Of a stretch of DNA of 64,000 bases, positions 27,561-50,199 are shown one piece after another. Within the stretch, counting starts at the first letter, position 1. The number at the start of each line of letters is the position of its first letter. The DNA is from Acidimicrobiaceae bacterium. GTDB taxonomy: Bacteria; Actinomycetota; Acidimicrobiia; Acidimicrobiales; Aldehydirespiratoraceae. The translations under genes and the position numbers were made by a program. Below the pieces are notes generated by a model. The model saw only the letters and a list, made by a program, of their open reading frames with translations, made no database searches and was not told where the DNA came from. Location of the stretch: assembly GCA_009837445.1 (NCBI GenBank), contig VXTM01000007.1, forward strand, positions 124,001 to 188,000, written 5' to 3'.

Positions 27561-27711
27561 CGGGTGGATGTCTCCTGTGTGATTGGCGGTGCGCGGGTAC
27601 GAACCGCGACGGTGACAATGCAATCTAGAGGGCAGCCGACCAAATCCCGACCTTACTGGTCAACTTTTCCGGGAATTGTATAGAGGGCTGCGAGCAGCCG
27701 AGGCGAGTCGC

Positions 27712-28755
27712 TTAGAGGGGCTTGCGGGCCAGGAAGCAGTACAGAGGCGTGAAGATCCCTGATCTGCCGCCGGCGGCATAGGCACTGGCGGTCCGGTCCA
27801 GCATCTCGACGACGTCGGCCGAACCCTTCGGCAGGATCCTCAGCACCTCGGCCAGCCTGGATCCCCCGATTGCCGTCTTGCGGCCCTGCGGAACCCCGAT
27901 CAGGGAGTTGCCCAACTTTCTGTTCCAGCTCTCCAGCGGCTGGTACCACGGCGTGGCCGGACCGTCCTGTTCGGCGCCCCGGTCGATCCCCTCGATGAGC
28001 TCGAATCCCACCGCTTCGAGCGTCCGGTCCACCTCGTGCGTCGTGGCTATCTCCTTGAGCGCTATGCCGTGCATCAGGTCTTGCTTCATGGCCTGATGCT
28101 CGTCGTCGTCGGGATCGAACCTGTCCGTCATGCACATCTCTTGACCCCAGAAGAGGGCTCCGGGCTTCAGCACTCGGAAGATCTCGGTGAAGGCGCCCGC
28201 CTTGTCCGGCGCATGGCATGTGGATTCGATCGCGTAGCCGCGGTCGAACGTGCCGTCCGCGACGGCCGCCATGTCCATGAAGCTGCACACCAGGTAGTCG
28301 ACCATGTGATCGAGCCCGGCCGCGGCGTTCAACGACCTTGCCCTGTCCATCTGGGTCTCATTGATGTTGACCCCGACGACGGAGACACCGGCCTCCTTCA
28401 CGACGCGGCGCATCGGGCCGCCGATCCCGCAGCCGATATCGACCACCGTCATGCCCTCGCTCAGCTCCAGCTTGGAGATCATCAGTCGCTGGTGCCTGAT
28501 CTTGGAGTCCTCCACGCTCTCTCCGGGCGACAGCGGCGCGAAGTGCAGGGACTCGCCCCAACCCCACACCATCAGCTCGTTGGAGATGTCGTAGTACTCC
28601 CTGACGGTCTCGGTGTGGTCATAGCCCGCAGCGTTGGCATCTCGCGCCGACGCTCTGTCGAGCCATCCGTCGAAACGCCGGATCCGGTTGGCGACTCCCC
28701 CCTCGACCCGGTCCGCCGCCCTCAGTCCGGTGAGCACTCGCAATAGCTTGGACAT
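27712..28755 (-). CDS. Sterol C-24 methyltransferase homologue (ERG6/SMT-like)
   Basis: SAM-dependent methyltransferase of 347 residues from ATG 28755. Four regions characteristic of eukaryotic sterol methyltransferases are present in order: the aromatic 'Y-x2-GWG-x-S-x-HF' motif (VWGWGESLHFAPLSPGES), SAM motif VVDIGCGIGGPMRRV, YAIESTCHAPDKAGAF, and ATPWYQPLE. The C-terminus ends in GGRSGIFTPLYCFLARKP, matching the SMT C-terminal domain of ERG6 (GGKSKLFTP-type). Such a gene in a bacterium is rare; related proteins that alkylate sterols have been described only recently in uncultured bacteria. It lies 54 bases after ctaG on the same strand and may be read from the oxidase operon. Codon use looks less GC3-biased by eye. 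Alternative: methylation of another triterpenoid or tocopherol-like substrate, but the SMT_C domain argues for a sterol. Confidence 0.85.
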   Translation of the reverse strand: MSKLLRVLTGLRAADRVEGGVANRIRRFDGWLDRASARDANAAGYDHTETVREYYDISNELMVWGWGESLHFAPLSPGESVEDSKIRHQRLMISKLELSEGMTVVDIGCGIGGPMRRVVKEAGVSVVGVNINETQMDRARSLNAAAGLDHMVDYLVCSFMDMAAVADGTFDRGYAIESTCHAPDKAGAFTEIFRVLKPGALFWGQEMCMTDRFDPDDDEHQAMKQDLMHGIALKEIATTHEVDRTLEAVGFELIEGIDRGAEQDGPATPWYQPLESWNRKLGNSLIGVPQGRKTAIGGSRLAEVLRILPKGSADVVEMLDRTASAYAAGGRSGIFTPLYCFLARKPL

Positions 28756-28809
28756 CCGCAGCAACCGTAGACGCTTAGCGTGCCGGAACGGCCATTATCC
28801 GCTCGGCCC

Positions 28810-29715
28810 TTAGAGGCGGGGCTCGGGGGGCGGGGGGCCGAGGCGCTCGAACTCGGCCTCGACATCGGCCGTGGTGAGGGTGTTGGCCAACACCCGGAGA
28901 CGGCGATCCTCGGCGTCGGCGCGCCTCTGGGCGGCCGAGAAACGGAAGAACCGGATGGCAATCAAGGTCCACAGGTAGAAGCCGCCGAGCACTTTCATGA
29001 TCGCGCCGGCTGCCTGCTGGTCGGCGGCCACCGAGATACCGAACAGACGCTGGGCATGGTCGTAGACCGGGTACACCGAGCCCTCGGCGAAGGTCAGCCA
29101 CGCGGCCGGCACGGTGGGGATGATCGACATGGCGAACAGGTACACCATCTTGGCCGGCTCCGACAGGTGCAGCTCCCGCAGCGGCCCGACGACCGGTGTC
29201 CACATGGCCAGCGCGCTGGCGAACATGAGCAGGTGCATGGCGTAGTGGAAGGGGCCACTGCGCACCGACAGCTCCACCACGGTGTTCCAGTGCATCAGTG
29301 CCTGCAGCGCGTTGAAGGCCACCCCGGCCACCAGCGGATGCACCAGGCGCCGGATTACCTTGGCCGAGCGCGAGCCGTCGACCACGATGAGTCGGGCCAG
29401 CCACTCGGGCACGGCCATCAGCAGCAGCGGCGGCACCACGAAGCTGATCAGCAGGTGCTGCACCATATGCACCGAGTACAGGTACTCCTCGGCGATGTCG
29501 TGCATGGGCCAGTCGGCCGAGACCCACAGCAGAGCCACTCCCGCGACGAAGCACAGCCGCTGGCGCTTGGTAACTGCGGCTACGCCCGGCGGCACCGCCA
29601 CCGGGGCCACCACCCTCACCACGTAGACGGCCAGGCCGATCAGCAGGGCGACCGTCAGCCACACCTCGGGATGGAACTGGAAGCGCCAGGCGTCGGTGGC
29701 AGCCAGCGCGCCCAT
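28810..29715 (-). CDS. ctaG: Cytochrome c oxidase assembly protein CtaG (caa3-type)
   Basis: Membrane protein of 301 residues with seven hydrophobic segments. This is the Bacillus-type CtaG (not the Cox11 type), needed for copper delivery or assembly of the caa3 oxidase. Conserved His and acidic residues are visible in SADWPMHDIAEEYLYSVHMVQH and in the later MHWNTVVEL and FHYAMHLLMF. The hydrophilic C-terminus carries a coiled-coil-like basic/acidic patch. It is the last of the oxidase genes and ends 54 bases before the sterol methyltransferase-like gene. Confidence 0.88.
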   Translation of the reverse strand: MGALAATDAWRFQFHPEVWLTVALLIGLAVYVVRVVAPVAVPPGVAAVTKRQRLCFVAGVALLWVSADWPMHDIAEEYLYSVHMVQHLLISFVVPPLLLMAVPEWLARLIVVDGSRSAKVIRRLVHPLVAGVAFNALQALMHWNTVVELSVRSGPFHYAMHLLMFASALAMWTPVVGPLRELHLSEPAKMVYLFAMSIIPTVPAAWLTFAEGSVYPVYDHAQRLFGISVAADQQAAGAIMKVLGGFYLWTLIAIRFFRFSAAQRRADAEDRRLRVLANTLTTADVEAEFERLGPPPPEPRL

Positions 29716-30079: not shown

Positions 30080-30712
30080 TCAGTCGGCCGGGATCAGGTA
30101 GATGACAGTGAAGATGAAGATCCACACGATGTCCACGAAGTGCCAGTAGAGGCCCACGATCTCCACCGTCTCCGCGTTGCGCTGGGTCAGCTTGCCCTTC
30201 ACCGACGCCACGAACAGCGACATCAGCATCACGATGCCGAGGCTCACGTGAACGCCGTGGAAGCCGGTCAGGGTGAAGAAGGCGCTGCTGGCCGGGTTCG
30301 TGGTGAAGGCGACGCCCTCACGCACGAAGCTGGTGAACTCGTAGACCTGCCCGCCGACGAATATCCCCCCGAGCAGCGCGGTGGCCAGAAGCCAGGTGCG
30401 GCCGGCCTCGTCCTCGCCCCGGGACACCGCGGAGAGGGCCAGCACCATCGTCAGCGAGCTCATCAGCAGCACGAACGAGCTCACCGACGTGAACGGGATG
30501 TCGAACACGTCGGTGGGCAGGGTGCGGCCGTTGCCCCGGGTCTTGTACAGCAGGTAGGTGGAGATCAGCCCGCCGAACAGCAGGCACTCCGAGCCCAGGA
30601 ACACCCACATGGCCAGCTTGGTGTGCGACAGGCCTGTCGTGGTGGCGTGGGGATCGTGACCGTGGTCCGACACGTCGTGGGCGTGATCAGCCACTAGGGG
30701 TTCGGCGCTCAT
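30080..30712 (-). CDS. ctaE: Cytochrome c oxidase subunit III
   Basis: Membrane subunit of 210 residues with five segments, typical of the short prokaryotic form lacking the first two helices. Landmarks: AMWVFLGSECLLFGGLIS, FTLTGFHGVHVSLGIVML, and the C-terminal VEIVGLYWHFVDIVWIFIF. The N-terminus is His-rich (DHAHDVSDHGHDPHA). It overlaps the ctaD stop region by ATGA (start 30712, ctaD stop 30709), so it is translationally coupled. Confidence 0.95.
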   Translation of the reverse strand: MSAEPLVADHAHDVSDHGHDPHATTTGLSHTKLAMWVFLGSECLLFGGLISTYLLYKTRGNGRTLPTDVFDIPFTSVSSFVLLMSSLTMVLALSAVSRGEDEAGRTWLLATALLGGIFVGGQVYEFTSFVREGVAFTTNPASSAFFTLTGFHGVHVSLGIVMLMSLFVASVKGKLTQRNAETVEIVGLYWHFVDIVWIFIFTVIYLIPAD

Positions 30713-32697
30713 GGTTGGTCGCCTTCGTCGTCCGGCTCGGCGTCACCGGCCTCGTGATGCTCTTCGTGGTGGTCGTGGGCGGCGTCGGGGTCGTCCACCG
30801 GTTCCATGGCCCAGGAGTAGAGCGAGGCGATCGTCAGGAGCGCGCCGACTAGTGCCAGCCACAGGTTGAAGATCAGGCCGTAGCCGATCAGCGGCAGCCC
30901 GACCGCCACCGCCAGCGGCCAGAACGACGGCGACGGCAGGTGCACGCCGGTGGCCTCGCCGGTCTGGGCCGCCTCCTCGGTGGTTGCGACCCGCACCACC
31001 TGGCCCTCGTCGTTCTCGGCGTACTTGGAGTGCCACCACTCGTCGCGGCCGTGCACCTGCGGCACGGTGTCGAAGTTGTGCGTCGGCACCGGCGACGGGA
31101 TCGACCACTCAAGGCTGCGGGCGTCCCACGGGTCCGGACCGGGCGGAGGCAGGTGGGGGGCGTCGCGTTTGGACTTGACCACGTTCCACATGAAGATCAG
31201 CACGCTCACCGCGATCAGAAGCGACCCGACGGTGGCCGCCATGTTCCAGAACTCGAAGCCGTAGCCCCGGGCGTAGGTGTCGATGCGGCGCGACATCCCC
31301 TGCAGGCCGAGGATGTGCATGGGGCCGAACGTGAGGTTGAAGCCCACCAGCATGATCCAGAAGTTCCAGTTGCCGAGCCGCTCGTTGAGGAAGTGGCCCC
31401 ACACCTTGGGCCACCAGAAGTACAGGCCCGCGAACAGGCCGAGCACCCCGCCCCCGAAGATCACGTAGTGGAAGTGGGCCACGATGTAGTAGGTGTCGGT
31501 CTGCTGGGTGTCGGCCGGGGCAACCGAGTGGGTCACGCCAGACAGGCCGCCGATGGTGAACATGGCCACCGTCGCCACCGCGAACTTCATGGCCACCGTG
31601 AAGCGCAGCTTCCCGCCCCACATAGTGGCAAGCCAGTTGAGGACCTTCACCCCCGTCGGCACTGCGATGAACATCGTCGAGAGCGAGAAGGCGGCCACCG
31701 AGATAGGGCCCATGCCCGACACGAACATGTGGTGGGCCCACACGCCCCAGCCCATGAAGCCGATGGCGATCCCGGAGAACACCATGAACTCGTAGCCGAA
31801 CAGGGGCTTGCGGCTGAAGGTGGGGATGATCTCCGACACCACCCCGAAGGCGGGCAGGATGATGATGTACACCTCCGGATGGCCGAATATCCAGAATAAG
31901 TGCTGCCATAAGAGCGGGTCGGCGCCGGCGTCTGGATTGAAGAACTGGGCATCGAAGAGCCGGTCGAACATCAATAGGAACAGGGCCACGGTGATCACCG
32001 GCAGCGCGAACAGCAGCAGGAACTGCGTGATCAGCAGCATCCAGGTGAGCACCGGCATGCGCATCAGCGTCATGCCCGGCGCCCGCATGTTGAGGCAGGT
32101 GACGATCAGGTTCACCGACGACACCAGCGAGGCGATGCCCAGGATCTGCAGGCCGATGGCGTAGAAGTCCACGCCGTGGCTGGGCGAGAAGGCCACGCCG
32201 CTGTTGGTCGAGTAGCAGAACCACCCGCAGTCTGCGCCGCCGCCGCCCACTATCCACGAGGTGTTCAGGAAGATGGCGCCCGACAGCCAGATCCAGTACG
32301 AAAGCGCGTTGAGGCGGGGGAAGGCCACGTCGCGGGCCCCGATCTGCAACGGGATGAAGTAGTTCGCGAAGGCGGCCGCCAGCGGCATGATGAACAGGAA
32401 CACCATGGTGACGCCGTGCATGGTGTACACCTGGTTGTAGACGTCGGCGCCTAGCACCGAGCCCTCGGGCGCGGCCAGCTGCAGCCGGATCAGCAGCGCC
32501 TCGACCCCGCCGACCAGGAAGAAGAACATCGCCGAGGCGCCGTACAGGATCCCGATGCGCTTGTGGTCGACGGTGCTTAGCCAGTCCCGCCAGCCCCTGC
32601 CCTCCTGGGGGCGGGTGAACACGCCGAGGGGCCGCTCGGCGTAGCGGGCGGTGTCGCCCGGGCCGAGCTCGAGGGGCGTCTTCTCAGTGATCGCCAT
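30709..32697 (-). CDS. ctaD: Cytochrome c oxidase subunit I
   Basis: Catalytic subunit of the haem-copper oxidase, 662 residues. All redox ligands are in place: His94 (YTMHGVT, low-spin haem), His273 and Tyr277 (FGHPEVY, CuB and cross-linked Tyr), His322-His323 (VWAHHMF, CuB), His408 and His410 (VAHFHYVIF, high-spin and low-spin haems). The proton-pumping D/K-channel region looks intact. The C-terminus carries about 110 residues beyond the usual end, including two extra hydrophobic helices and an acidic His-rich tail. It sits between ctaC and ctaE; it reduces oxygen to water at the plasma membrane. Confidence 0.97.
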   Translation of the reverse strand: MAITEKTPLELGPGDTARYAERPLGVFTRPQEGRGWRDWLSTVDHKRIGILYGASAMFFFLVGGVEALLIRLQLAAPEGSVLGADVYNQVYTMHGVTMVFLFIMPLAAAFANYFIPLQIGARDVAFPRLNALSYWIWLSGAIFLNTSWIVGGGGADCGWFCYSTNSGVAFSPSHGVDFYAIGLQILGIASLVSSVNLIVTCLNMRAPGMTLMRMPVLTWMLLITQFLLLFALPVITVALFLLMFDRLFDAQFFNPDAGADPLLWQHLFWIFGHPEVYIIILPAFGVVSEIIPTFSRKPLFGYEFMVFSGIAIGFMGWGVWAHHMFVSGMGPISVAAFSLSTMFIAVPTGVKVLNWLATMWGGKLRFTVAMKFAVATVAMFTIGGLSGVTHSVAPADTQQTDTYYIVAHFHYVIFGGGVLGLFAGLYFWWPKVWGHFLNERLGNWNFWIMLVGFNLTFGPMHILGLQGMSRRIDTYARGYGFEFWNMAATVGSLLIAVSVLIFMWNVVKSKRDAPHLPPPGPDPWDARSLEWSIPSPVPTHNFDTVPQVHGRDEWWHSKYAENDEGQVVRVATTEEAAQTGEATGVHLPSPSFWPLAVAVGLPLIGYGLIFNLWLALVGALLTIASLYSWAMEPVDDPDAAHDHHEEHHEAGDAEPDDEGDQP

Positions 32698-34800: not shown

Positions 34801-35385
34801 CTACTTCGTAATGAACACGACGTACCAGACCAGGAAGTAGCACAGCACGCACATGTGCCAGAACAGGGCCGAGGCCTGCACCGCGTGGGCCAGATCGCGG
34901 CCGAAGGGCCCCAGCAGTGAGCGGATGGTGGTGACCGTCAGCATCGCCATGGCCACCATCAGCATGGCGATGAACGAGCCGGTGACCGCGTAGAACAACA
35001 ACTCGGCCCGACCGCCGTCTATGGCGAAGGCGGTGTCCTGGTAGACGAACCAGAACTGGTTGATCACCGCGGCGCCGAACATAAGGGTGACGCCCAGCGC
35101 GATGAACCCGTGGGGCCGATCCTCGGCCCGGGCGGCCTGTACGGCCCACTGCACCGTCACGATAGACAGCGCCAGAGTCATCATCATCATCCCGGCGGGG
35201 CCGAGCTCGACCGCGCCGGACGGGAACCACTCCTCGCCCAGGGCCGCAGCCTGCTGACGCTGCTGGACGTACACCGAGACGAGGGCGGCGAAGACCATGA
35301 AGGCCGCCCCTGTGGCCAGCAGGGCGCCGACAACGACGGTTCGAGGACGGATCGCCTCCGCCGCGGGCAGCTCGGTCGTCCTCAT
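34801..35385 (-). CDS. Haem-copper oxidase subunit III-like protein
   Basis: 194 residues and five membrane segments resembling the subunit III fold (LFYAVTGSFIAMLMVAMAML; ASALFWHMCVLCYFLVWYV with the His-containing last helix). It is a second subunit-III paralogue besides ctaE and overlaps the subunit-I-like gene by ATGA, so the two form a pair. It may pair with the ligand-poor subunit-I-like protein rather than with the active oxidase. Function unclear; the fold assignment is moderately secure. Confidence 0.7.
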   Translation of the reverse strand: MRTTELPAAEAIRPRTVVVGALLATGAAFMVFAALVSVYVQQRQQAAALGEEWFPSGAVELGPAGMMMMTLALSIVTVQWAVQAARAEDRPHGFIALGVTLMFGAAVINQFWFVYQDTAFAIDGGRAELLFYAVTGSFIAMLMVAMAMLTVTTIRSLLGPFGRDLAHAVQASALFWHMCVLCYFLVWYVVFITK

Positions 35386-36926
35386 GCCGGCTCGCTCACG
35401 GCTGTAGCTCGCTGTCTCAGGGCTGAGACTGCCCCCAGCAGGGCCGCGGCCAGCCCGGCCGCCACCAGCAACGACCCGATCAGGACCACCCCGTTGAGCG
35501 CGGCGTTGCCGTCCAGCGCTAGGGCCATGAGGTCAGGGTCATCGGCAATGAAGCCGGAGATGAGGTCGGCCAGCACCAGCAGGCCGCCGCCGGCGCCCAG
35601 CAGCACGATCGCGCCCACCGCCAGCCTCTGCTGGATGGGGCCCAGCAGCAGCTGCGACCAGGTCGCCAGAGCAGCCACACCGGCGATGAGGCCGGCCGCG
35701 ACGACGCCGTGGAACACCGACCAGGTGGCGGAGGTCTCGAGCAGGTCGAGGGGCTCGATCACGCGCAGAGCCCCGACCAGGGCGGCCGCTCCGAGGAGCT
35801 TGAGCGCCGCGCCCGCGCCCAGCATCGGGGTGCTCAGGAGCCGGTCCCGCGTCTTCGAGCCCCGCATCACCAGCTCGCCGACGCCGCCGGCGGTGGCCAC
35901 CACCGGAACGACGGCGGCCAGGCCGAAGGCCACGTAAACCAACCCGTCGCGAAGGTCCTGCGGGGCGGTGAAGTAGTCCTGTGACCAGCCGCCCATGGCC
36001 AGCAGGCCGAACAGCCCGACCACTATGAGGATGGCCTCGGGGCGGCTGGAGCGGGCATCGACGGCCTTGCCCACCGCGCTGAAGACGATGCCGAGCACCG
36101 GCACGGCCATGGCGTAGACCGCGGGCTGCTCCACCAGCCAGTCGAGCTGGAGCCAGATGTCGGGGCTCTCGGGCCGACCGAAGGCGACGGCCTGCCGGCC
36201 CCGCAGGTCTGCGTAGATGACGACGATGTTGGCGATGGCCACCGGCAGGGAGAACAGCCACACCACCGCGGTCACCAGCATCGACCACGAGAACGGGGGC
36301 ACGTCGAGGAGGCTCATGCCGGTCTGGCGCAGCGAGATAACGGTGGTGGCCACCACGATGGCCCCGAGCAGCAGGGCGACGATCACCATGCCGGTGCCGA
36401 GCAGCGTGAGGGCCATGGCGTCGCTCTCGTTGCCGGTCACACCGTCAAGCGCGCCCCAGCCCCCTCCCGCGAGCACCGAGGCGATCATGATCACCGCGCC
36501 GATCAGCCACGACCAGAACGACGCCAGCGCGGCCCGGGGGAAGGCCACATTTCCCGCCCCCACCTGGGCCGGCACAACGGCCAGGGCCAGGCCGAGCAGC
36601 AGCGGCATCACCACCAGCAGTACGAACGACACCCGGTAGAGCGTCCACATGCGGAAATAGGAGTTGAGGCCACCGAACAGGTCGTCGGGAGCCACCGCAT
36701 CGGTGCGTCCCAGCGACAGCAGCGCGCCGATGACGGCGGCGCCCAGCCCCAGCAGGAGCGACGTGACCACGAAGAGTCGGCCGACCTGCGCCGCGTCGTT
36801 GGTCATGAACGGCTGGGCCAGTCCCCGGGGCGCCCCCAGTGTCTCCGCCGGGGACGCCGGCGCGGCCGCGCCGTCGGCGTCAGCCGCAGCCTCCGATTCC
36901 GCGACGGGGGACTCGGTCAGCGTCAT
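35382..36926 (-). CDS. Haem-copper oxidase subunit I-like protein lacking the metal ligands
   Basis: 514 residues, about twelve membrane segments, with recognisable subunit I skeleton: VVPAQVGAGNVAFPR corresponds to ctaD FIPLQIGARDVAFPR, and QPAVYAMAVPVLGIV to HPEVYIIILPAFGVV. By this alignment the redox ligands are mostly replaced: ctaD His94 by Tyr97, His273 by Gln267, His322-His323 by Gln316-Asp317, His408 by Val404; only His410 (His406 here) and the Tyr cross-link position (Tyr271) remain. The reading frame is intact, so it is probably a functional non-redox protein, perhaps a structural or assembly partner. It has a TAGCAT box 9 bases before its ATG and heads the oxidase operon. Confidence 0.75.
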   Translation of the reverse strand: MTLTESPVAESEAAADADGAAAPASPAETLGAPRGLAQPFMTNDAAQVGRLFVVTSLLLGLGAAVIGALLSLGRTDAVAPDDLFGGLNSYFRMWTLYRVSFVLLVVMPLLLGLALAVVPAQVGAGNVAFPRAALASFWSWLIGAVIMIASVLAGGGWGALDGVTGNESDAMALTLLGTGMVIVALLLGAIVVATTVISLRQTGMSLLDVPPFSWSMLVTAVVWLFSLPVAIANIVVIYADLRGRQAVAFGRPESPDIWLQLDWLVEQPAVYAMAVPVLGIVFSAVGKAVDARSSRPEAILIVVGLFGLLAMGGWSQDYFTAPQDLRDGLVYVAFGLAAVVPVVATAGGVGELVMRGSKTRDRLLSTPMLGAGAALKLLGAAALVGALRVIEPLDLLETSATWSVFHGVVAAGLIAGVAALATWSQLLLGPIQQRLAVGAIVLLGAGGGLLVLADLISGFIADDPDLMALALDGNAALNGVVLIGSLLVAAGLAAALLGAVSALRQRATAVSEPA

Positions 36927-39889: not shown

Positions 39890-40975
39890 ATGCCGGTGCT
39901 GCGCGAGGAGCCTCCCAACACACCGCTGCCCTCCCCGTTCCCCGAGGGCTGGTACTTCGTCGCGAGCCGCAGAGCCCTGGAGAAGGCCGGGATCGTCCGC
40001 AAAACCTGGATGGGCGCCGAGATCGTCGCCTGGTGCGACGACACCGGGCAGGTCTGCGTCGCGGAGGCCTACTGCCCCCACCTGGGCGCCGACCTGGGGC
40101 CCGCCGCAGGGGCGCGGGTGCGCGACGGCCGACTTGTCTGTGGCTTCCACGGCTTCGAGTACGACACCGGAGGCCAGTGTGTCGCTACTCCCTTCGCGCC
40201 GCCGGTGAAGGCGGCCCGGCTGCGGGTCTTCGAACCGCGGGAGATCGCCGGCCTCGTATTCGCCTGGTGGGGAATCGACGGGCGTCAGTCGCAATGGCAC
40301 CTGCCCGCGGATGAGCCGGACCAGGCCGGCTGGAGCGGCCTGCACATCTGGACCTCACGTTTTGCCGGCCATCCCCAGGAGACCACCGAGAACTCGGTGG
40401 ATCTGGCCCATTTGCGCTACGTGCACGGATACGACAGCGTCAGCCGGGTCGAGGCGCTGACGGTGGACGGGCACCTGCTGCTGAGCGATTTCGACTTCGC
40501 CACCACCCGGAAGATCACCCGGTTCGCCTCAACCAAACTCAAGGTGTCCGCCAAGACACTCGTCGCCGGTCTGGGCTACTCGTTCGTGGAGATACGCGAG
40601 CACACCATCGGCCTGGACATGCGCCTGTGGATACTGGCGACCCCCGTCGACGGCACCATCATCGAGCTGTCGGTGGTCTCCCAGACGGGCGAGATACGCG
40701 GCCCGAACCGCTGGATCGCGGGTCTGGGATTCCTTCCGGTGAGACTGCGGGCCCCCATCATGAACAGGATCATGGCGTCCTTCGAGCGGCGAGACGTGTT
40801 GCAGGACGTGCCGATCTGGAGCGCCAAGAGCTACCGGTCCCGCCCGCGCCTGGCCCGTTCCGACGGAGAGATCATGCGGTACCGCGCCTACTGCTCCCAG
40901 TTCTATCCCGACCTGCCGGCTACGGCCGGCGACACTGGGACTGTCGTCGACCTGCGGGCAGCAGCCGACGGATAG
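39890..40975 (+). CDS. Rieske non-haem iron oxygenase, steroid/sterol-type candidate
   Basis: 361 residues. The Rieske cluster motif is CPHLG with Cys62 and His64, and CGFHG with Cys84 and His87. The mononuclear iron site is in ENSVDLAHLRYVHGY (bridging Asp171, His174, His179). The N-terminal EGWYFVASRRALEKAGIVRKTW is as in single-component-type Rieske proteins. The pattern N-x2-D-x2-HL-x3-H resembles KshA-, DAF-36/Neverland- and SdmA-like oxygenases that act on steroids; aromatic dioxygenases differ in this part. Substrate assignment to a sterol is inference. The neighbours (FAD oxidoreductase, P450s, RND transporter) and the SMT homologue nearby agree with it. No reductase or ferredoxin partner is seen. 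Confidence 0.8.
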   Translation: MPVLREEPPNTPLPSPFPEGWYFVASRRALEKAGIVRKTWMGAEIVAWCDDTGQVCVAEAYCPHLGADLGPAAGARVRDGRLVCGFHGFEYDTGGQCVATPFAPPVKAARLRVFEPREIAGLVFAWWGIDGRQSQWHLPADEPDQAGWSGLHIWTSRFAGHPQETTENSVDLAHLRYVHGYDSVSRVEALTVDGHLLLSDFDFATTRKITRFASTKLKVSAKTLVAGLGYSFVEIREHTIGLDMRLWILATPVDGTIIELSVVSQTGEIRGPNRWIAGLGFLPVRLRAPIMNRIMASFERRDVLQDVPIWSAKSYRSRPRLARSDGEIMRYRAYCSQFYPDLPATAGDTGTVVDLRAAADG

Positions 40976-40996
40976 AGGGACATCGAGCGGCAGGCA

Positions 40997-42385
40997 GTGA
41001 CCACCTCCGAGACGCGGACCATGCCGCGGCGGATCGCCATCGTCGGCGGAGGTGTCTCGGGACTGGGAGCCGCATGGGCACTGAACCATCATCCGGACCG
41101 CTTCGACTTCCGGTTGTTCGAGGCGCAGGCGCGAATCGGCGGCAACGCGATCACAGCCGACATGCCGCAGGACGACGGCCAGTCGATTCCCTTCGACATC
41201 TCGGTCACCGCCTGCATCCCGTCGGTGTACGACCACATCGTGCTGTTGATGGAGAGGTTCGGGATCGAGCTGATCGACACCCGGTTCAGCTACAGCGTCA
41301 AATACGGCGGCCAGATCTACGCCCACGACTTCGACTCGGAGATCAGGGAGCAGCTTCAGGACGAGATCGAGAGATTCCAACGTCTCCTGCAGCGCCTGCA
41401 CTCGTTCGGCTGGCTGACCCGCTCCCAGTCCAAGCTGCTGAACGCGATCAATCCCTTCAACTACGTCAGCATGGGGACGGTCCTGAACCTGGGCGGGTTC
41501 TCCGGCGACTTCAGGTACAAGATTCTCAAGCCCATGTTCGTCAACTTCCTGATGGCGACGAACGTGTTCGACATGCCCGCTTCCCTCTTCGCTCGCTATC
41601 TCGAGTTCTTCGACATTGAGTCGGCCACTCCGATGCAGACATGGGATCAGGGCACACGTCACCTCTATGAGCAGCTGTCGGCCGGCTTCGGGGACAAGAT
41701 CTACCTGAGCCGGCCTGTCCGGAAGGTGTACCGGTCGGAGTCGAAGGTCGTGGTCGAGGACTCCGGCGGGGTGCGGGAGACGTTCGACGACGTGATCTTC
41801 GCCTGCAACGCCAACCAGACCCTGATGATCCTCGACAAGCCCACGAGCCTGGAGCGCTACCTGCTCTCGTCGATCCGGTACGAGAGCGAACTCCACAACC
41901 ACACCCTCGTCCACCATGACTCGTCCGTGCTGCCAGACAACGAGGCGAGGCCACTGACGACGCGGAGCAATCACATCGAGCAGTACGGGGTGAGACCGGA
42001 CAACTACGAGATCACCTACATCATGCACAACCAGCAGCCGTGGGCCGGTCGCTCCGACAAGCCCTGCCTGGTCACCTACAACCCGATCAGTCCCATCGAC
42101 GAGGAGAAGATCGTCAAGCGGTGGTGGTTCCAGCACGTCGTGCACGACGTGCGCCACGTTGCGGTGCTCGTGAACCTGTTCCGCTTCATCCAGGGCAGGC
42201 GTCGGACATGGCACTGCGGCGCCCACACGCTGATCAACAGCCAGGAGACCTGTCTGGTGACCGGGCTCGCGGCGGCCAGGCAGATGGGCGCGGACTACCA
42301 CTTCGACGATCCCGCGGCCAAGCGTTCGTTCAACTACTACGGGAGCATCATGTACGGCTCGCGATTCCGCAAGGTCCCGCAATGA
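40997..42385 (+). CDS. FAD-dependent oxidoreductase, amine-oxidase/protoporphyrinogen-oxidase-like superfamily
   Basis: 462 residues from a GTG at 40997, 21 bases after the Rieske gene stop. The FAD fold is RRIAIVGGGVSGLGAAWALN; the second signature part (RIGGNAITADMPQDDG) and the C-terminal GAHTLINSQETCLVTGLAA contribute to FAD binding. It resembles the predicted NAD/FAD-binding proteins of the COG2907 type and related flavin desaturases, often near lipid-modifying genes. It could introduce a double bond or oxidise a hydroxyl in the substrate of its neighbours (inference). Tandem position suggests co-transcription with the Rieske protein. Confidence 0.75.
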   Translation: MTTSETRTMPRRIAIVGGGVSGLGAAWALNHHPDRFDFRLFEAQARIGGNAITADMPQDDGQSIPFDISVTACIPSVYDHIVLLMERFGIELIDTRFSYSVKYGGQIYAHDFDSEIREQLQDEIERFQRLLQRLHSFGWLTRSQSKLLNAINPFNYVSMGTVLNLGGFSGDFRYKILKPMFVNFLMATNVFDMPASLFARYLEFFDIESATPMQTWDQGTRHLYEQLSAGFGDKIYLSRPVRKVYRSESKVVVEDSGGVRETFDDVIFACNANQTLMILDKPTSLERYLLSSIRYESELHNHTLVHHDSSVLPDNEARPLTTRSNHIEQYGVRPDNYEITYIMHNQQPWAGRSDKPCLVTYNPISPIDEEKIVKRWWFQHVVHDVRHVAVLVNLFRFIQGRRRTWHCGAHTLINSQETCLVTGLAAARQMGADYHFDDPAAKRSFNYYGSIMYGSRFRKVPQ

Positions 42386-42421
42386 CCCCGAGATCACAGC
42401 AGCGCGCTGAGCCCTCGAAGG

Positions 42422-42437
42422 CCGGCCATCTGGCCGG
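42422..42437. repeat. Short hairpin after the FAD oxidoreductase gene
   Basis: CCGGCC, loop ATCT, GGCCGG: a six-base stem. It may end the Rieske-FAD transcript. No T-run. Confidence 0.4.
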
Positions 42438-42551
42438 ATCGCAGCTATGGTTGTAGGCGAGATCGACAAGGCGACCCTGCGAGGGTTAGTCCTCAGTCAG
42501 GCGGGGGTGGACGCGATGGCCGGCACCGGCGAACACAGCGGCTATCGGAGC

Positions 42552-42571
42552 CTGCCCCGCCAACGGGGCAG
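42552..42571. repeat. Strong hairpin before the P450 gene
   Basis: CTGCCCCG (42552-42559), loop CCAA, CGGGGCAG (42564-42571): an eight-base perfect stem in the 264-bp spacer, 78 bases before the chosen P450 start. It could be a terminator of the previous unit or a leader structure. Confidence 0.45.
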
Positions 42572-42649
42572 TCTGCCGTTTCGTGGCTGGGCACGTCGTC
42601 TAGCATGGAGGCGGTTGCCTCTTCCGCCGTTGCCTTGGAGGCTCGAACG

Positions 42650-43852
42650 GTGATCGATCCGGCAGTCTGGGCCGATCCCTATCCGTTCTATGAGAGGCTC
42701 CGCCGGGAGCGTCCCGTGTGGCTGGTGCCAGGACTCGATTTGGCCTACATCGCCACCCACGATCTCATCGTGGACGCCGTCCGCCGGATCGACGATTTCT
42801 CCAGCCACCTCGACATGCTGGTCATCACCGGCGACGACGGCAACCCCGACCTGTTCCACACCGAGGAGTTCGGCGAGGGCACCACCACCCTGGCCACCGC
42901 CGACCCGCCCGAGCACACCGTTCACCGCAGCCTGGTATTCCCCGAGTTGGTCGCCCGCCGCATGGAGGCCATGCGACCCGAAATCGAGGTCTTCATCGAC
43001 GAGCGGTTGGCCGTCGCCCGATCCCAGGGGACCAGGGTGGAGTGGGCCAACACCGTGGCCCATCCTGTGCCCGCCCGGGTCATCGGACGGCTTATTGGCT
43101 TGCCCGACGAAGACTGGCCCCAGGTGATGAAGTGGGCCCTCGACGGCGGCAGGGTGCTGGCAGGCTTGTTCACTCGGCAGGACCTCATCGCCTTGACCAA
43201 AGAGCCGAATGGGGCGAACAGGTTTCTGTACACCAAGCTGAGTGAAGCCAGCAACGACCCCGGCGACGACCTCTTGGGCGTGTGCGCCCAAGCGGTGGCC
43301 AGCGGCGATCTGGATGTGGGCGACGCCGTCGGCACCCTCACCGTGCTGCTCGGCGCCGGCGGAGAATCCACTGCATCGCTGATCGGGAACGCCGTGCGGA
43401 TGCTGGCCGACGATCCCTCCCTTCAGGAGCAAGTCCGGGCCGACCACGGCCTCATCGAGCGCTTCATCGAGGAAGCCGTACGGCTCGAATCGCCGTTTCG
43501 AGGCCACTACCGCCAGGTGAAGCGCGACTGCGAACTGGGGGGCTTCACCCTCACTGCTGGCACCACCGCTTTCTTGCTGTGGTCGTCGGCCAACCGCGAC
43601 CCGGCCGAGTTCGACCGGCCCGACGAAGTGGTTCTGGACCGCCGCTTACCCCGCAGCCACCTGGCCTTTGGACGGGGCATCCACCACTGCGTAGGCGCTC
43701 CGCTGGCCCGCCTGGAGACCCTCTGCTCGCTAGAGCGTCTGCTGCGAGACACCTCGTGGTTCAGTCTGGCCGACGACGACCAGCCCCGCTGGGAGAAGAG
43801 CATGTTCGTGCGCCGCCACGAGCACCTCCCCCTGGACGTGACCTGGAACTAG
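42650..43852 (+). CDS. Cytochrome P450 (bacterial class I type)
   Basis: About 400 residues from GTG 42650. That start is chosen because GGAGG lies 8 bases upstream and VIDPAVWADPYPFYERLR is the usual P450 opening; ATG 42605 would add 15 residues. I-helix TVLLGAGGESTASLIG has the Gly-Glu-x-Thr oxygen-activation motif, ExxR is EEAVRLES, and the haem-Cys loop reads FGRGIHHCVGAPLARLE. It is soluble and needs an external ferredoxin and reductase, none of which is next to it. The function cannot be fixed; position between the Rieske/FAD pair and an RND transporter suggests a lipid or terpenoid pathway. Confidence 0.9.
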   Translation: MIDPAVWADPYPFYERLRRERPVWLVPGLDLAYIATHDLIVDAVRRIDDFSSHLDMLVITGDDGNPDLFHTEEFGEGTTTLATADPPEHTVHRSLVFPELVARRMEAMRPEIEVFIDERLAVARSQGTRVEWANTVAHPVPARVIGRLIGLPDEDWPQVMKWALDGGRVLAGLFTRQDLIALTKEPNGANRFLYTKLSEASNDPGDDLLGVCAQAVASGDLDVGDAVGTLTVLLGAGGESTASLIGNAVRMLADDPSLQEQVRADHGLIERFIEEAVRLESPFRGHYRQVKRDCELGGFTLTAGTTAFLLWSSANRDPAEFDRPDEVVLDRRLPRSHLAFGRGIHHCVGAPLARLETLCSLERLLRDTSWFSLADDDQPRWEKSMFVRRHEHLPLDVTWN

Positions 43853-43884
43853 CCCCCTGCCTTAGAGGGCCGACGCTCGGAAGG

Positions 43885-43890
43885 TACAGT
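43885..43890 (+). promoter_or_regulatory. -10-like box before the RND transporter gene
   Basis: TACAGT ends 8 bases before the ATG at 43899, with no ribosome site; leaderless pattern. Confidence 0.35.
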
Positions 43891-43898
43891 GACGCGCC

Positions 43899-46385
43899 AT
43901 GAGCCGCCCGCTCGACCGGTTCAGCCGGCTGGTCACGGCCCGCCCGTACATCACCATCATCGTCCTCCTGCTGGTCACTGTCGTGCTGGCTGCGGGGGCC
44001 ACCCGCCGCCTGCCTCCGGTCGAGGGAGCCTCAGTAGCGTTCCTTCCCCCGGGGAGCGCCATCGCCACCGCGGTGGAGGAACTGGACGAGTTCTTCGGGG
44101 AGTCCGGCGATGTGAGCGTGGTGACGCTGGTGTTCCGCGGCGAAGCGCTCACCCCGGGAGGGCTCGCCCAGATGGACGCCCTCCTCGACAGCATCCTGGC
44201 CAGCCCGGGCGTGGCGGAGCTGCTGGCACCCGCCGATCCGATCATCGCGCCCACACTTGTGATCGAGGCCCTGGGCGGGGTCGACGCCGCGTCGGCCACC
44301 CAGACCGAGATCGACTCCCTCCTCGGCGTCCCTGAGATCGGAGGCGCGCTGGCCGCGATGGGCGGGAGCGACACGGACGGCACGACCATCACCATCGCCA
44401 GCATCCGCCTGACCGACACGGGCGACACCAGCGTCCAGGACGTCGAGAGGACGATCGACGAGTTGGCGACCGGCTCGGCCGGCCCCCTGCGAGTCAGCAG
44501 CCTCTCGACCATCGTGATCGAGGACGAGTACTCCGATGCCATCGAGACAGGGATGGGGCAACTGGTCGGGGTGGCCCTGCTGCTGATCGCGGCGCTGATC
44601 GTGCTCTTCTTGAGGACGCTGTCCGATCTGCTGCTCACACTGGTGGGCCTGGTCTTCTCGCTGGTCTGGATCATCGGGGCGGAGGGCTGGCTCGGGCCGG
44701 ACGCGCTGGGCTGGATAGGCCCTCCGAGCTCGCTCACGGCGATGGTGCCGATCATCGTGATCAGCCTCACGGTCGACTATGCGATCCAGGCCGTGTCGCA
44801 CTACCGCGAGCAGCGGGTCGAGGGCGAGCCGGTGATCCAGGCGGTCCGGACGGGACTTCGCAACGTCGCCGTGCCGCTCACGCTGGCCGCCGTCACCACG
44901 ATCGCGAGCTTCCTGGCCACCCTGTTCTCCCCGATCGACGTGATCGGCGACTTCGGCATCGTCGCCGGGCTCGGAGTCGGATTGAGCCTGATCGTGATGC
45001 TCACGCTGGTCCCGGCCGGACGGACGATCATCGACCGACGACGCGAGGCCCGCGGCAAGCTGCGGCCGGCCCGGCCGGTCTCGGGCGCGCTGCCCGGGAT
45101 AGAGCGGGTGGCCAAGCTGCTCGGTGGGAGCGTGGCCCGCCGGCCAGCCCCCTACCTCATCGCTGTACTGGTCGTGACCATCGGGATGGGGATCGCGGCC
45201 ACAGGCCTCCACTCGGAATTCAGCATCCGCGAGATCCTTCCCCGGGGCGGGACCGTGATGGACGACCTGGAGACCCTCGACGCGGCTGTCGGGGGGTCCA
45301 CGGAGCTGGCCAGCGTGCTGGTGAAAGCCGAGGCCACCGAGACCCGCACGCTGCTGAACGTGAAGGAGCTCACCGACGCCTTCGCCGATCCGCAGCGGCG
45401 CCCCCAGGCGGCCACGGGGCCGATGGAGACGAACTATGTGTCGCTCCTGTACGACTGGACCCGCGACAGTGGGCAGCCCGGCGACAAGTACGACGCCGAC
45501 CTGGCCGCGCTCTTCTCCGAGGCATCGGCCGAAGTCGAACTCGATCCGCTATCGATGCGACTGCTCCTGCACAGGCTCGATGCGCAGGATCCGGCCCTGG
45601 CCCACGTCCTGGCCAACAATCCCGCCGGCATCGACGCCATCCTGCTGCAGTTCCCGACCTACACCGATGACCCCGGAGCCACCGCGGTGCTCCAGGAGGA
45701 GATCGAGGCGCTGTGGTCCGGCGACGACGACGCCATAACCGTTACCTCGACGAGCGTCCTGTCGGTCACGGTCACCGACCAGATCACATCCCGCCAGACG
45801 GAGGCGATCAGCTCGACGGTGGCCGTCGCCCTCGGCATCCTCGTCCTCTTCTTCTGGGTCACACTGCGCCGGCCCACCCTGGGGGCCATCGCGGTCGGGC
45901 CGATCGTGCTCGTCCTCATCTGGATCCTGGGCACGATGGCGCTGCTGGACATCCCCTACGGGCTGATCACCTCGATCATCACCGCCCTCTCGATCGGGAT
46001 CGGCGTGGACTACACCATCCACGTGATCCATCGCTACCGGGAGGAGTTCTCCCGGGTGCGCAACCCCGAGCAGGCCGCGATCCGGACGCTGGCGACCACC
46101 GGGTCGGCGCTGCTGGGCTCCGCGCTGACGACGGCGCTCGGGTTCGGTGTGCTCATGTTCTCGCCGCTGGCCGGCATCCAGCAGTTCGGCATCACCGCCG
46201 CGATCTCGATCGCCTACTCACTGCTCGTGTCAATCCTGGTGGTACCGCCGGCGATGACCGTGTGGGGCGCCTACGAGAACATGCGCCTGCGTTCGACGGT
46301 GCAGCGCATGTGGGACGACCTCGACGTGGCCGTCGAAGAGATCCACCAGCGCCACATGGGGGAGCAGGGGACGTCAGACTCCTAG
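43899..46385 (+). CDS. RND superfamily transporter (MMPL/Patched-like)
   Basis: 828-residue inner-membrane transporter with twelve segments in two halves, each beginning with one helix followed by a large extracytoplasmic loop. The RND signature lies in VDYAIQAVSHYREQ (TM4 region, first half) and VDYTIHVIHRYREEF (second half), typical of MMPL, HpnN and Patched-like proteins, whose fold includes a sterol-sensing-domain-like bundle. Members export or relocate lipids (mycolates, hopanoids, sterols in Methylococcus). Sitting between two P450 genes it is a candidate mover of the pathway's lipid product (inference). Its last 12 bases overlap the end of the opposite-strand GPP34-P450 gene. Confidence 0.88.
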   Translation: MSRPLDRFSRLVTARPYITIIVLLLVTVVLAAGATRRLPPVEGASVAFLPPGSAIATAVEELDEFFGESGDVSVVTLVFRGEALTPGGLAQMDALLDSILASPGVAELLAPADPIIAPTLVIEALGGVDAASATQTEIDSLLGVPEIGGALAAMGGSDTDGTTITIASIRLTDTGDTSVQDVERTIDELATGSAGPLRVSSLSTIVIEDEYSDAIETGMGQLVGVALLLIAALIVLFLRTLSDLLLTLVGLVFSLVWIIGAEGWLGPDALGWIGPPSSLTAMVPIIVISLTVDYAIQAVSHYREQRVEGEPVIQAVRTGLRNVAVPLTLAAVTTIASFLATLFSPIDVIGDFGIVAGLGVGLSLIVMLTLVPAGRTIIDRRREARGKLRPARPVSGALPGIERVAKLLGGSVARRPAPYLIAVLVVTIGMGIAATGLHSEFSIREILPRGGTVMDDLETLDAAVGGSTELASVLVKAEATETRTLLNVKELTDAFADPQRRPQAATGPMETNYVSLLYDWTRDSGQPGDKYDADLAALFSEASAEVELDPLSMRLLLHRLDAQDPALAHVLANNPAGIDAILLQFPTYTDDPGATAVLQEEIEALWSGDDDAITVTSTSVLSVTVTDQITSRQTEAISSTVAVALGILVLFFWVTLRRPTLGAIAVGPIVLVLIWILGTMALLDIPYGLITSIITALSIGIGVDYTIHVIHRYREEFSRVRNPEQAAIRTLATTGSALLGSALTTALGFGVLMFSPLAGIQQFGITAAISIAYSLLVSILVVPPAMTVWGAYENMRLRSTVQRMWDDLDVAVEEIHQRHMGEQGTSDS

Positions 46386-48891: not shown

Positions 48892-50199
48892 ATGACCGTC
48901 ACCACGCCCGGCCCCTCCATCAAGCCCCCTCCGGCAACCAAGGCGGACCCTGCCAACCCGATCCACAACGTCTTCTGGCGCCGGCACCGCGACGAGGTGG
49001 AGGAGGACCTGAGGAGGCTCCGCTCCCAGCCGCTCACGTTCTTTCCCGGATTCCAGTTCGTGGACGAGTTGGCCGGCCTCCGGACGCCGGGAGCCTGGGT
49101 CGTGCCCCGGCACGCCCCCATCCTCGAAGTGTCGCGCAACGCGCAGGTCTACTCCTCGGCCCGGGGAGTCACTATCAACGACTTCCCGCCCGAGTTCAAC
49201 GAGTACTTCAACTCCATCATCTCCATGGACGACCCCCGTCACGCCCGGCTGAGGCGGCTTGTGTCGGCCGGCTTCACGCCCCGGATGCTGGCCCGGCTCG
49301 AGGACTCGGTGCAGGACCAGGCCTCCATGATCGTGGACGAGGTCTGCGAGCGGGGCGAGTGCGACTTCGTCACCGACATCGCGGCCCGCCTGCCGCTGCG
49401 CATCGTCTGCGACCTGATGGGGATCCCGGCCTCGCACCACGACTTCGTGTTCGACCAGTCCAACATCATCCTGGGCGCGGCCGACGAGGAGTACGTGCCC
49501 GAGTTCGACGACCTGCTGACCGCCATCCTCAACGCCGGTAAGGCCCTGGCCGACCTGATGGACGATGTGGCCGAGTCGAAGGTCGGGGTGGAGTCCGAGG
49601 ACCTGACCAGCGTCATCGTCAACGCGGAGGTGGACGGGGAGCGGCTGACCCGGGCCGAGCTGGCCAGCTTCTTCATCCTGCTGGTGGTGGCCGGCAACGA
49701 GACCACCCGCAACGCGATCAGCTGGGGGTTGGTGTACCTCACCGCCCATCCCGACCAGCGCCGCATCTGGGCCGAGGACTTCGAGGGCGTGGCCCACAGC
49801 GCGGTGGAGGAAATCGTGCGCATCGCCAGCCCGGTCACCTACATGCGCCGCACCGCGCTGTGCGACACCGAGCTGGAGGGCGTCAAGATCGACGAAGGCG
49901 ACCAAGTGGTGATGCACTACCTGTGCGCCAACCGGGACGAGTCGGTGTTCGACGACCCGCTCGCCTTCGACGTCCTGCGCGACCCCAACCCCCACGTCGG
50001 CTTCGGCGGCCCCGGCCCGCACTACTGCCTGGGCGCCCACCTGGCCCGCCGCGAGATCAAGGTGATGTTCCGGGAGCTGTTCACCCGCATCGGCGACATC
50101 GAGGCCACCGGCGAGCCCGAGCTGCTGTCCTCAGCCTTCATCCACGGCATCAAGCACCTCCCCGCCAAGTTCACCCCCACAGGACCCACCCCGACCTGA
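48892..50199 (+). CDS. Cytochrome P450, CYP124/125/142-like (steroid/branched-lipid omega-hydroxylase type)
   Basis: 435 residues from ATG 48892, preceded by CCGGAG. I-helix FFILLVVAGNETTRNAIS is the CYP124/125/142 signature, ExxR is VEEIVRIAS, the haem loop is FGGPGPHYCLGAHLARRE, and the C-terminal FIHGIKHLPAKF matches the GIKxMPVxF ending of cholesterol 26-hydroxylases and methyl-branched lipid hydroxylases. This is a family resemblance only; specific substrate is not provable. It directly follows tRNA-Phe and precedes the paired hairpin repeats. With the sterol methyltransferase-like gene and Rieske oxygenase it supports a steroid theme. Confidence 0.87.
   Translation: MTVTTPGPSIKPPPATKADPANPIHNVFWRRHRDEVEEDLRRLRSQPLTFFPGFQFVDELAGLRTPGAWVVPRHAPILEVSRNAQVYSSARGVTINDFPPEFNEYFNSIISMDDPRHARLRRLVSAGFTPRMLARLEDSVQDQASMIVDEVCERGECDFVTDIAARLPLRIVCDLMGIPASHHDFVFDQSNIILGAADEEYVPEFDDLLTAILNAGKALADLMDDVAESKVGVESEDLTSVIVNAEVDGERLTRAELASFFILLVVAGNETTRNAISWGLVYLTAHPDQRRIWAEDFEGVAHSAVEEIVRIASPVTYMRRTALCDTELEGVKIDEGDQVVMHYLCANRDESVFDDPLAFDVLRDPNPHVGFGGPGPHYCLGAHLARREIKVMFRELFTRIGDIEATGEPELLSSAFIHGIKHLPAKFTPTGPTPT

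Follow-up and report, generated by a model that had tools for sequence, protein, structure and literature searches.

Bacterial sterol methyltransferases (SMTs) have been published, shown to be active, and found in sponge-symbiont metagenomes (Brown et al. 2023, PMC10070321). In the parts of that paper covering SMTs, the proteins combine methyltransferase and SMT_C domains and fused SMO/OSC homologues are mentioned, as at the locus described here, whereas no mention is made there of a GPP34-P450. Sterol gene clusters (CSGs; ERG24, CYP51, and LSS) of Ircinia symbionts have been exchanged across phyla, according to the portions of the report that treat these clusters (Kelly et al. 2022, PMC9531527). 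The present locus resembles them in the horizontal transfer of sterol genes across sponge-symbiont phyla, with SMT1/ERG6 enriched in the Ircinia case, and differs in that CSGs make sterol, while the cassette described below consists of other genes and most of its carriers that were checked lack a fusion cyclase. Bacterial SMTs and cross-phylum sterol clusters were therefore already known; what looks new is a remodeled SMT subfamily and its GPP34-P450 partner, and neither the subfamily nor the pairing came up in searches of the open-licence literature.

The window (the whole 64,000-nucleotide stretch of DNA that was analyzed) contained a minus-strand open reading frame (27712..28755, with the start ATG at 28755 and the stop ending at 27712) annotated as encoding a 347-amino-acid (aa) SMT-like class I methyltransferase with an SMT_C domain and a remodeled Region I, designated SMT-A. 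The initial annotation of this DNA had claimed an SMT C-terminal domain, and the claim held: PF08498 (Sterol_MT_C) matched at 56 bits (Pfam cut-off, 21.7), and the C-terminus reads GGRSGIFTPLYCFLARKPL. The profile check proposed with that claim was positive for both PF08498 and class I methyltransferase models (Methyltransf_11, 62.9 bits; cut-off, 21.2), so that the protein combines a class I methyltransferase domain with SMT_C, both over curated cut-offs, as members of the SMT family do. Absence of SMT_C with a placement among ubiquinone- or tocopherol-type enzymes had been named as evidence to the contrary; SMT_C was present, and the UbiE match (29 bits; Pfam cut-off, 20.1) was far below it. 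A PADLOC match to mads_2 (48 bits) was attributed to methyltransferase-domain similarity only. The strongest single Pfam match was to CMAS (64.5 bits, over its cut-off), a fatty-acyl methyltransferase family. No NCBIfam model matched over its cut-off (best shown, sarcosine/dimethylglycine methyltransferase, 80.5 bits), a solved chain named 24-sterol C-methyltransferase matched at 31.6 bits, below many other methyltransferases, and a fold search with the structure model (pLDDT, 83.7) returned general small-molecule class I methyltransferases. Given these results, the substrate could be another molecule, and sequence searches by themselves could accommodate either choice.

A homologue search of one genome collection produced 112 stretches encoding relatives of the window SMT, the best 80 of which (60 to 96% identical, all from metagenome-assembled genomes [MAGs]) were kept as loci L005 to L084. 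By record name, these best 80 of 112 belonged to Chloroflexota (31), Actinomycetota (Acidimicrobiia; 12), Gammaproteobacteria (8), Alphaproteobacteria (8), Acidobacteriota (7), Gemmatimonadota (6), Dadabacteria (1), Deinococcota (Truepera; 1), and Versatilivorator (1), with 5 unassigned. At two loci, a further SMT was present that diverges from SMT-A (42% and 38% identity with the window protein); this kind, here called type B, was also present in seven genomes of the window's order. The rarity first ascribed to the gene was borne out within its own lineage: among 396 genomes sampled from the phylum, PF08498 turned up in one, the window's own, and 12 of the order's 198 genomes encoded an SMT-A homologue. 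This rarity did not extend further, given the 112 relatives and the bacterial SMTs described as active in the SMT sections of Brown et al. (PMC10070321). An SMT-A match in genome G159 (contig C48) contained one in-frame TAG, so the copy there may be broken or misassembled.

Three of the 80 loci (records bin22, bin127, and bin90) appear in the tabulated part of a paper on Aplysina aerophoba (PMC5649159). Six further loci share the MP prefix of these three, giving nine MP-prefixed loci in total. Many other SMT-A MAGs presumably came from sponges, and from many hosts, going by their isolate names. The carriers of SMT-A are probably sponge-associated bacteria. In the corresponding portions of Kelly et al., CSGs were found in two A. 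aerophoba MAGs among those checked (28 passed quality control), versus the nine MP-prefixed SMT-A loci of 80 (PMC9531527).

Residues were compared in an alignment of 89 SMT-A rows (the window, the 80 loci, and 8 order genomes), together with 9 rows of type B and two from eukaryotes; the copies in G130, G159, and G184 were left out, and the proteins of L038 and G183 are identical. All 89 SMT-A rows had Met, Leu, Trp, and Met at yeast positions 81, 89, 221, and 225 (M62, L70, W203, and M207 in the window), and 98% had Tyr at yeast position 348. Positions 81, 89, and 225 were aromatic in all 9 type B rows (Tyr or Phe, Phe, and Trp or Tyr, respectively) and in the two eukaryotic SMTs (yeast Y81, F89, and W225). 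The initial annotation had reported all four ordered motif regions of ERG6-like enzymes. Because Met, Leu, and Met replace aromatics, that statement was only partly right: Regions II (DIGCGIGGP) and III (YAIESTCHAP, of the YAIEATCHAP type) were kept, but Region I reads LMVWGWGESLHF, versus FYEYGWGxSFHF or a close form in five type B sequences, without the aromatic motif YEYGWG..F of C-24 enzymes, and Region IV is GQEMCMT, not of the YEWCMT type. SMT-A shares with eukaryotic ERG6/SMT1 the domain order, Regions II and III, and an FTPxxxxxARKP C-terminus; it differs in lacking the Region I aromatics and W225. The window protein was 36 to 39% identical to a pair of type B SMTs, compared with 31% for yeast ERG6. 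SMT-A therefore looks like a distinct and apparently new subfamily of bacterial SMTs, as judged from its alignment.

The same replacements leave the C-24 sterol alkylation proposed at the outset unsupported. In the relevant passages of two papers, the Region I aromatics are tied to C-24 chemistry and described as needed for it (PMC6997595, PMC5711494), and a nematode 4-SMT, which by its description is likewise an SMT homologue without these aromatics, requires 3-oxo sterols (PMC6997595). It is accordingly unlikely, with Met, Leu, and Met in 89 of 89 SMT-A rows versus aromatics in 9 of 9 type B and both eukaryotic sequences, that SMT-A is an ordinary bacterial 24-SMT that methylates C-24 of desmosterol-like sterols despite its changed Region I, even though Regions II and III and SMT_C are retained. 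The SMT sections of Brown et al. leave some room for such an enzyme: one of their two bacterial clades might be SMT-A, their 30% yeast-identity threshold could admit SMT-A members, which were 31 to 36% identical to the yeast sequence, and side-chain activity was found for 8 of 10 SMTs from sponge symbionts and 12 of 14 from the environment (PMC10070321). SMT-A proteins may be among those tested.

In a quick IQ-TREE phylogeny (SH-aLRT support only), the SMT-A rows formed one clade on a long branch (SH-aLRT, 100). Phyla were interleaved inside this clade, with the 21 Actinomycetota rows requiring 8 changes, at least 4 of them forced by starred branches. The suggestion that the gene was horizontally acquired was supported by this interleaving, as transfer between bacterial phyla. 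Transfer from a eukaryote to a bacterium was rejected, the yeast and Arabidopsis proteins (two sequences, and thus a thin test) falling with type B outside the SMT-A clade. The tree program warned of long branches meeting on the type B side, which makes the deeper branching order unsafe, and the tree contained SMTs only, so that it leaves SMT-A unplaced relative to other methyltransferase families. The weaker GC3 bias noticed by eye did not stand out: the GC3 of SMT-A (0.868) was the lowest of 11 genes compared (others, 0.874 to 0.946) yet only the 12th lowest among 48 picked window frames of at least 150 aa (median, 0.91). It is therefore unremarkable, and atypical codon use was discarded as a sign of transfer.

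The measured spacing agreed with that first given, the start of SMT-A lying 54 bases behind the stop of its upstream neighbor ctaG (28810..29715, minus strand; PF09678, 134 bits). The cytochrome oxidase setting attributed to SMT-A was real in that ctaG adjoins it, in five of the six close-relative loci in which ctaG was visible, but was seen in close relatives only. The gap between the two genes was 10 to 123 bases in five of these loci and about 3.7 kb in the sixth, and no cta/cox homologues were seen beside SMT-A in the remaining loci. The roughly 3.7 kb inserted in that sixth locus (L011) contains a reading frame that resembles, by eye, an IS3-type transposase. With the neighbor limited to close relatives, the gap variable, and one insertion between the genes, a functional link to cytochrome oxidase was rejected. 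Cotranscription of SMT-A with ctaG is possible from their arrangement; no terminator-like or promoter-like sites were found within 27600-28900, and a candidate RNA structure in the gap was rejected (z-score, 0.66). The cytochrome oxidase operon also encodes a second COX1-like protein (35382-36926, minus strand; PF00115, 123 bits) next to a COX3-like neighbor (34801-35385, minus strand). By eye, three ligand motifs present in the canonical subunit (30709-32697) are missing from this second protein, MHG being changed to LYR, HPEVY to QPAVY, and HHMF to QDYF, and it looks like a cofactor-less paralogue.

A set of genes that recur beside SMT-A elsewhere was found in the window at 39890-48398, with 11 kb, including the cytochrome oxidase genes, between SMT-A and the nearest of them. 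On the plus strand, this cassette includes a 361-aa Rieske oxygenase with a KshA_C domain (39890..40975; PF19298, 76 bits; PF00355, 55 bits), whose best solved relatives were 3-ketosteroid 9alpha-hydroxylases (72 bits), and a 462-aa FAD-dependent amine-oxidase-like oxidoreductase (40997..42385; PF01593, 53 bits). The latter matched LkcE at 113 bits, with a weak match to the fatty-acid isomerase entry 2b9w (48 bits), and its homologues at SMT-A loci were 75 to 86% identical to the window protein. An 828-aa MMPL-family RND transporter with similarity to Patched and sterol-sensing domains followed (43899..46385, plus strand; PF03176, 145 bits; PF12349, 54 bits; PF02460, 51 bits), which the NCBIfam models HAE3, HpnN, and BstA all matched below their cut-offs. 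The last cassette gene, on the minus strand, encodes a 674-aa protein in which a GPP34 (Golgi phosphoprotein 3 family) domain is fused to a cytochrome P450 (GPP34-P450; 46374..48398; PF05719, 105 bits; PF00067, 118 bits), with a weak match to CYP51 (67 bits). Its heme-loop and ExxR motifs are kept, and its I-helix reads ASxYxGD, conserved across a 50-sequence alignment, at the site where the usual oxygen-activation motif, AGxDT, would be expected. Cassette membership is weak for a 415-aa P450 within the same span (42605..43852, plus strand; nearest solved relative, CYP144): a P450 81% identical to it directly adjoins SMT-A in G150, and one distant match (27%) was found among the 80 SMT-A loci. 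For a further 435-aa P450 beside the cassette (48892..50199, plus strand; PF00067, 83 bits), no conserved linkage to SMT-A was seen in the 80 loci.

Clustering of neighbors within 9 kb of SMT-A at the 80 loci revealed recurrent families in 49, 32, 23, 20, and 17 loci, all others being present in no more than 8. Pfam annotation, made on one representative for each of the six most recurrent families, identified the families of 49, 32, 23, 20, and 17 loci as the GPP34-P450, a KshA-type Rieske oxygenase, an amine-oxidase-like flavoprotein, an MMPL transporter, and an AcrB-type transporter. With the window proteins as queries, the GPP34-P450, Rieske oxygenase, flavin oxidase, and MMPL transporter were matched in 50, 39, 24, and 20 of the 80 loci, respectively; where 19.5 kb or more of sequence was available (56 loci), the counts were 38, 35, 21, and 18. 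The 20 loci with an MMPL homologue were all from Chloroflexota; across phyla, the recurrent neighbors were the GPP34-P450 and the Rieske oxygenase, both also present in the window, though neither was named in the initial annotation of SMT-A. The median gap between SMT-A and the GPP34-P450 was 593 bp (50 of 80 loci). SMT-A, Rieske, MMPL, and GPP34-P450 genes are contiguous in G056, the GPP34-P450, MMPL, and SMT-A genes lie together in G098, and SMT-A adjoins the GPP34-P450 gene in G118. On contig C250 of G573 (the genome of L009), two GPP34-P450 copies occur in tandem, 1.9 kb apart.

The association extended to genomes in which the two genes are not neighbors. Among the 198 genomes of the window's order, the one group in which genomes without SMT-A were surveyed, SMT-A and the GPP34-P450 were each found in 12, with 11 common to both (Fisher's exact P = 4e-16 without correction for relatedness, a value that overstates independence because the shared genomes belong to only five genera). 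The exceptions were G183 (77% complete), without a GPP34-P450, and G176 (one contig), in which the GPP34-P450 was present and no SMT-A match was found. In 50 SMT-A genomes picked by hand (24 in which the cassette is not close to SMT-A, 6 close relatives, and 20 in which it is), a GPP34-P450 was found in 47 (E value, 1e-60), at an identity of at least 40% in all but one (G612, 35%); it was missed in those of L006, L011, and L038, of which the L038 genome yielded the same positions as G183. Judged by the 47 of 50 and the 11 shared order genomes, SMT-A and the GPP34-P450 nearly always accompany each other in the genomes checked, whether or not they are neighbors.

Genes for sterol supply were unevenly distributed among the carriers. 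Contig C45 of the window's genome (L085, 829-4170) encodes a 1,113-aa fusion of a squalene-epoxidase-like FAD monooxygenase with an oxidosqualene cyclase, carrying VTDCTAE, in which DCTAE is the oxidosqualene cyclase motif. Its cyclase half scored 728 bits with NCBIfam osq_cycl (under the cut-off of 851), 496 with squalene_cyclas (over the cut-off of 323), and 261 with hopene_cyclase, and its best solved relative was human lanosterol synthase (435 bits, versus 179 for squalene-hopene cyclase). Through this fusion, the window's genome possesses the oxidosqualene cyclase of a de novo sterol pathway, and it also encodes an ERG4/ERG24-family reductase on contig C17 (114 bits; 0 of 14 control genomes) and an ordinary squalene-hopene cyclase. 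NF009479 (PRK12845), a 3-ketosteroid-delta-1-dehydrogenase (KstD) model, had no matches in this genome (93.8% complete) at an E value of 0.001; it matched in 11 of 14 controls, none over its cut-off.

The full-length fusion was found in 5 of the 198 order genomes, all with SMT-A, and in 11 of the 50 SMT-A genomes. Among the other 39, 12 had weaker matches (28 to 35% identical, at most 171 bits) in the hopene cyclase range, and 27 of the 50 had no cyclase match at an E value of 1e-30 with one query against draft MAGs. Since the human enzyme reached 435 bits against the C45 cyclase half, an unfused cyclase would probably have been detected. The scarcity of cyclases suggests that sterol synthesis is probably lacking in most of the SMT-A carriers checked. 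The same was argued for one chlamydial SMT in the SMT sections of Brown et al., where fused SMO/OSC is also already mentioned, so that the fusion was dropped as a novelty (PMC10070321). Genome G130 carries the epoxidase-cyclase fusion with a type B SMT about 5.5 kb away.

We interpret these observations, with about even confidence, as a horizontally shared sterol-modifying cassette around the SMT-family methyltransferase SMT-A, often acting on sterols that its carriers do not make themselves. SMT-A would be an S-adenosylmethionine-dependent C-methyltransferase acting on a sterol or close steroid without the standard C-24 Region I. The GPP34 domain may dock its P450 to the membrane, where the P450 would oxidize the same lipid, and the Rieske and flavin enzymes encoded in the window's genome, possibly with another P450, may make further changes. 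The RND transporter would move the sterol substrate or product, in whichever direction. A steroid theme is supported by the KshA_C Rieske oxygenase and by the sterol-sensing/Patched match of the transporter. The gene set appears to have passed among phyla of probably sponge-associated bacteria. The bacterium of the window could make the substrate itself, through the epoxidase-cyclase fusion and the ERG24-like reductase; in most other carriers checked, in which an oxidosqualene cyclase was not found, it may be drawn from the host or from neighbors. A bolder form of this proposal, which we hold only tentatively and consider rather unlikely, is that SMT-A has a new, non-C-24 regiochemistry (for example, as the C-26 methylase behind aplysterol or 26-methylstigmastane, or at another side-chain or ring position) and sits on a near-obligate two-enzyme module, exchanged among sponge symbionts of many phyla, in which a GPP34-tethered P450 is its partner and with which these bacteria would modify the sterols of their hosts. 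To our knowledge, aplysterol-type sterols are restricted to certain sponges, which counts against the C-26 version, as the SMT-A MAGs seem to come from many hosts.

The remaining alternatives differ from the sterol-modifying cassette in substrate or direction. That SMT-A methylates a lipid other than a sterol, such as an unsaturated fatty acyl, hopanoid, or prenyl chain, is distinctly unlikely: SMT_C and Region III are kept, similarity to canonical SMTs is clear, and the KshA-type Rieske oxygenase and the sterol-sensing domain point to steroids, although CMAS was the best Pfam match by a small margin, the flavin oxidase resembles LkcE and, weakly, 2b9w, the transporter is similar to HpnN below the model cut-off, and 39 of 50 carriers lack the full-length oxidosqualene cyclase fusion. 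A nuclear methylase acting on 3-oxo steroids, in a pathway with the KshA-like Rieske oxygenase and P450s, would have a parallel in the nematode 4-SMT, and the Rieske oxygenase of the cassette is of the KshA type; no 3-hydroxysteroid dehydrogenase was among the six most recurrent neighbor families annotated, and we regard this reading as improbable. Steroid catabolism by the 9,10-seco pathway with an incidental methyltransferase is highly improbable, since an enzyme that adds carbon suits breakdown poorly, no ring-cleavage enzyme was among the six most recurrent families, and NF009479 had no match in the window's genome (a search in which no control exceeded the cut-off and which thus had no true positive), even if the KshA-like Rieske oxygenase and P450s would fit breakdown too and sponge MAGs carry a KshA cluster of their own in the relevant part of one study (PMC5790920).

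Steranes with alkylated side chains are interpreted as fossil traces of sponges and algae. The enzymes for the 26-methyl side chain are undiscovered, and bacterial contributions are not to be ignored, according to the SMT sections of Brown et al. (PMC10070321). As a separate subfamily that phyla have in common, linked to a single partner P450 and in most of the genomes checked not accompanied by a fused cyclase, SMT-A offers concrete candidates for sterol methylations that still lack an assigned enzyme and for the modification of host sterols by bacteria. The recurrence of the cassette in unrelated bacterial groups hints at a common way of altering sterols.
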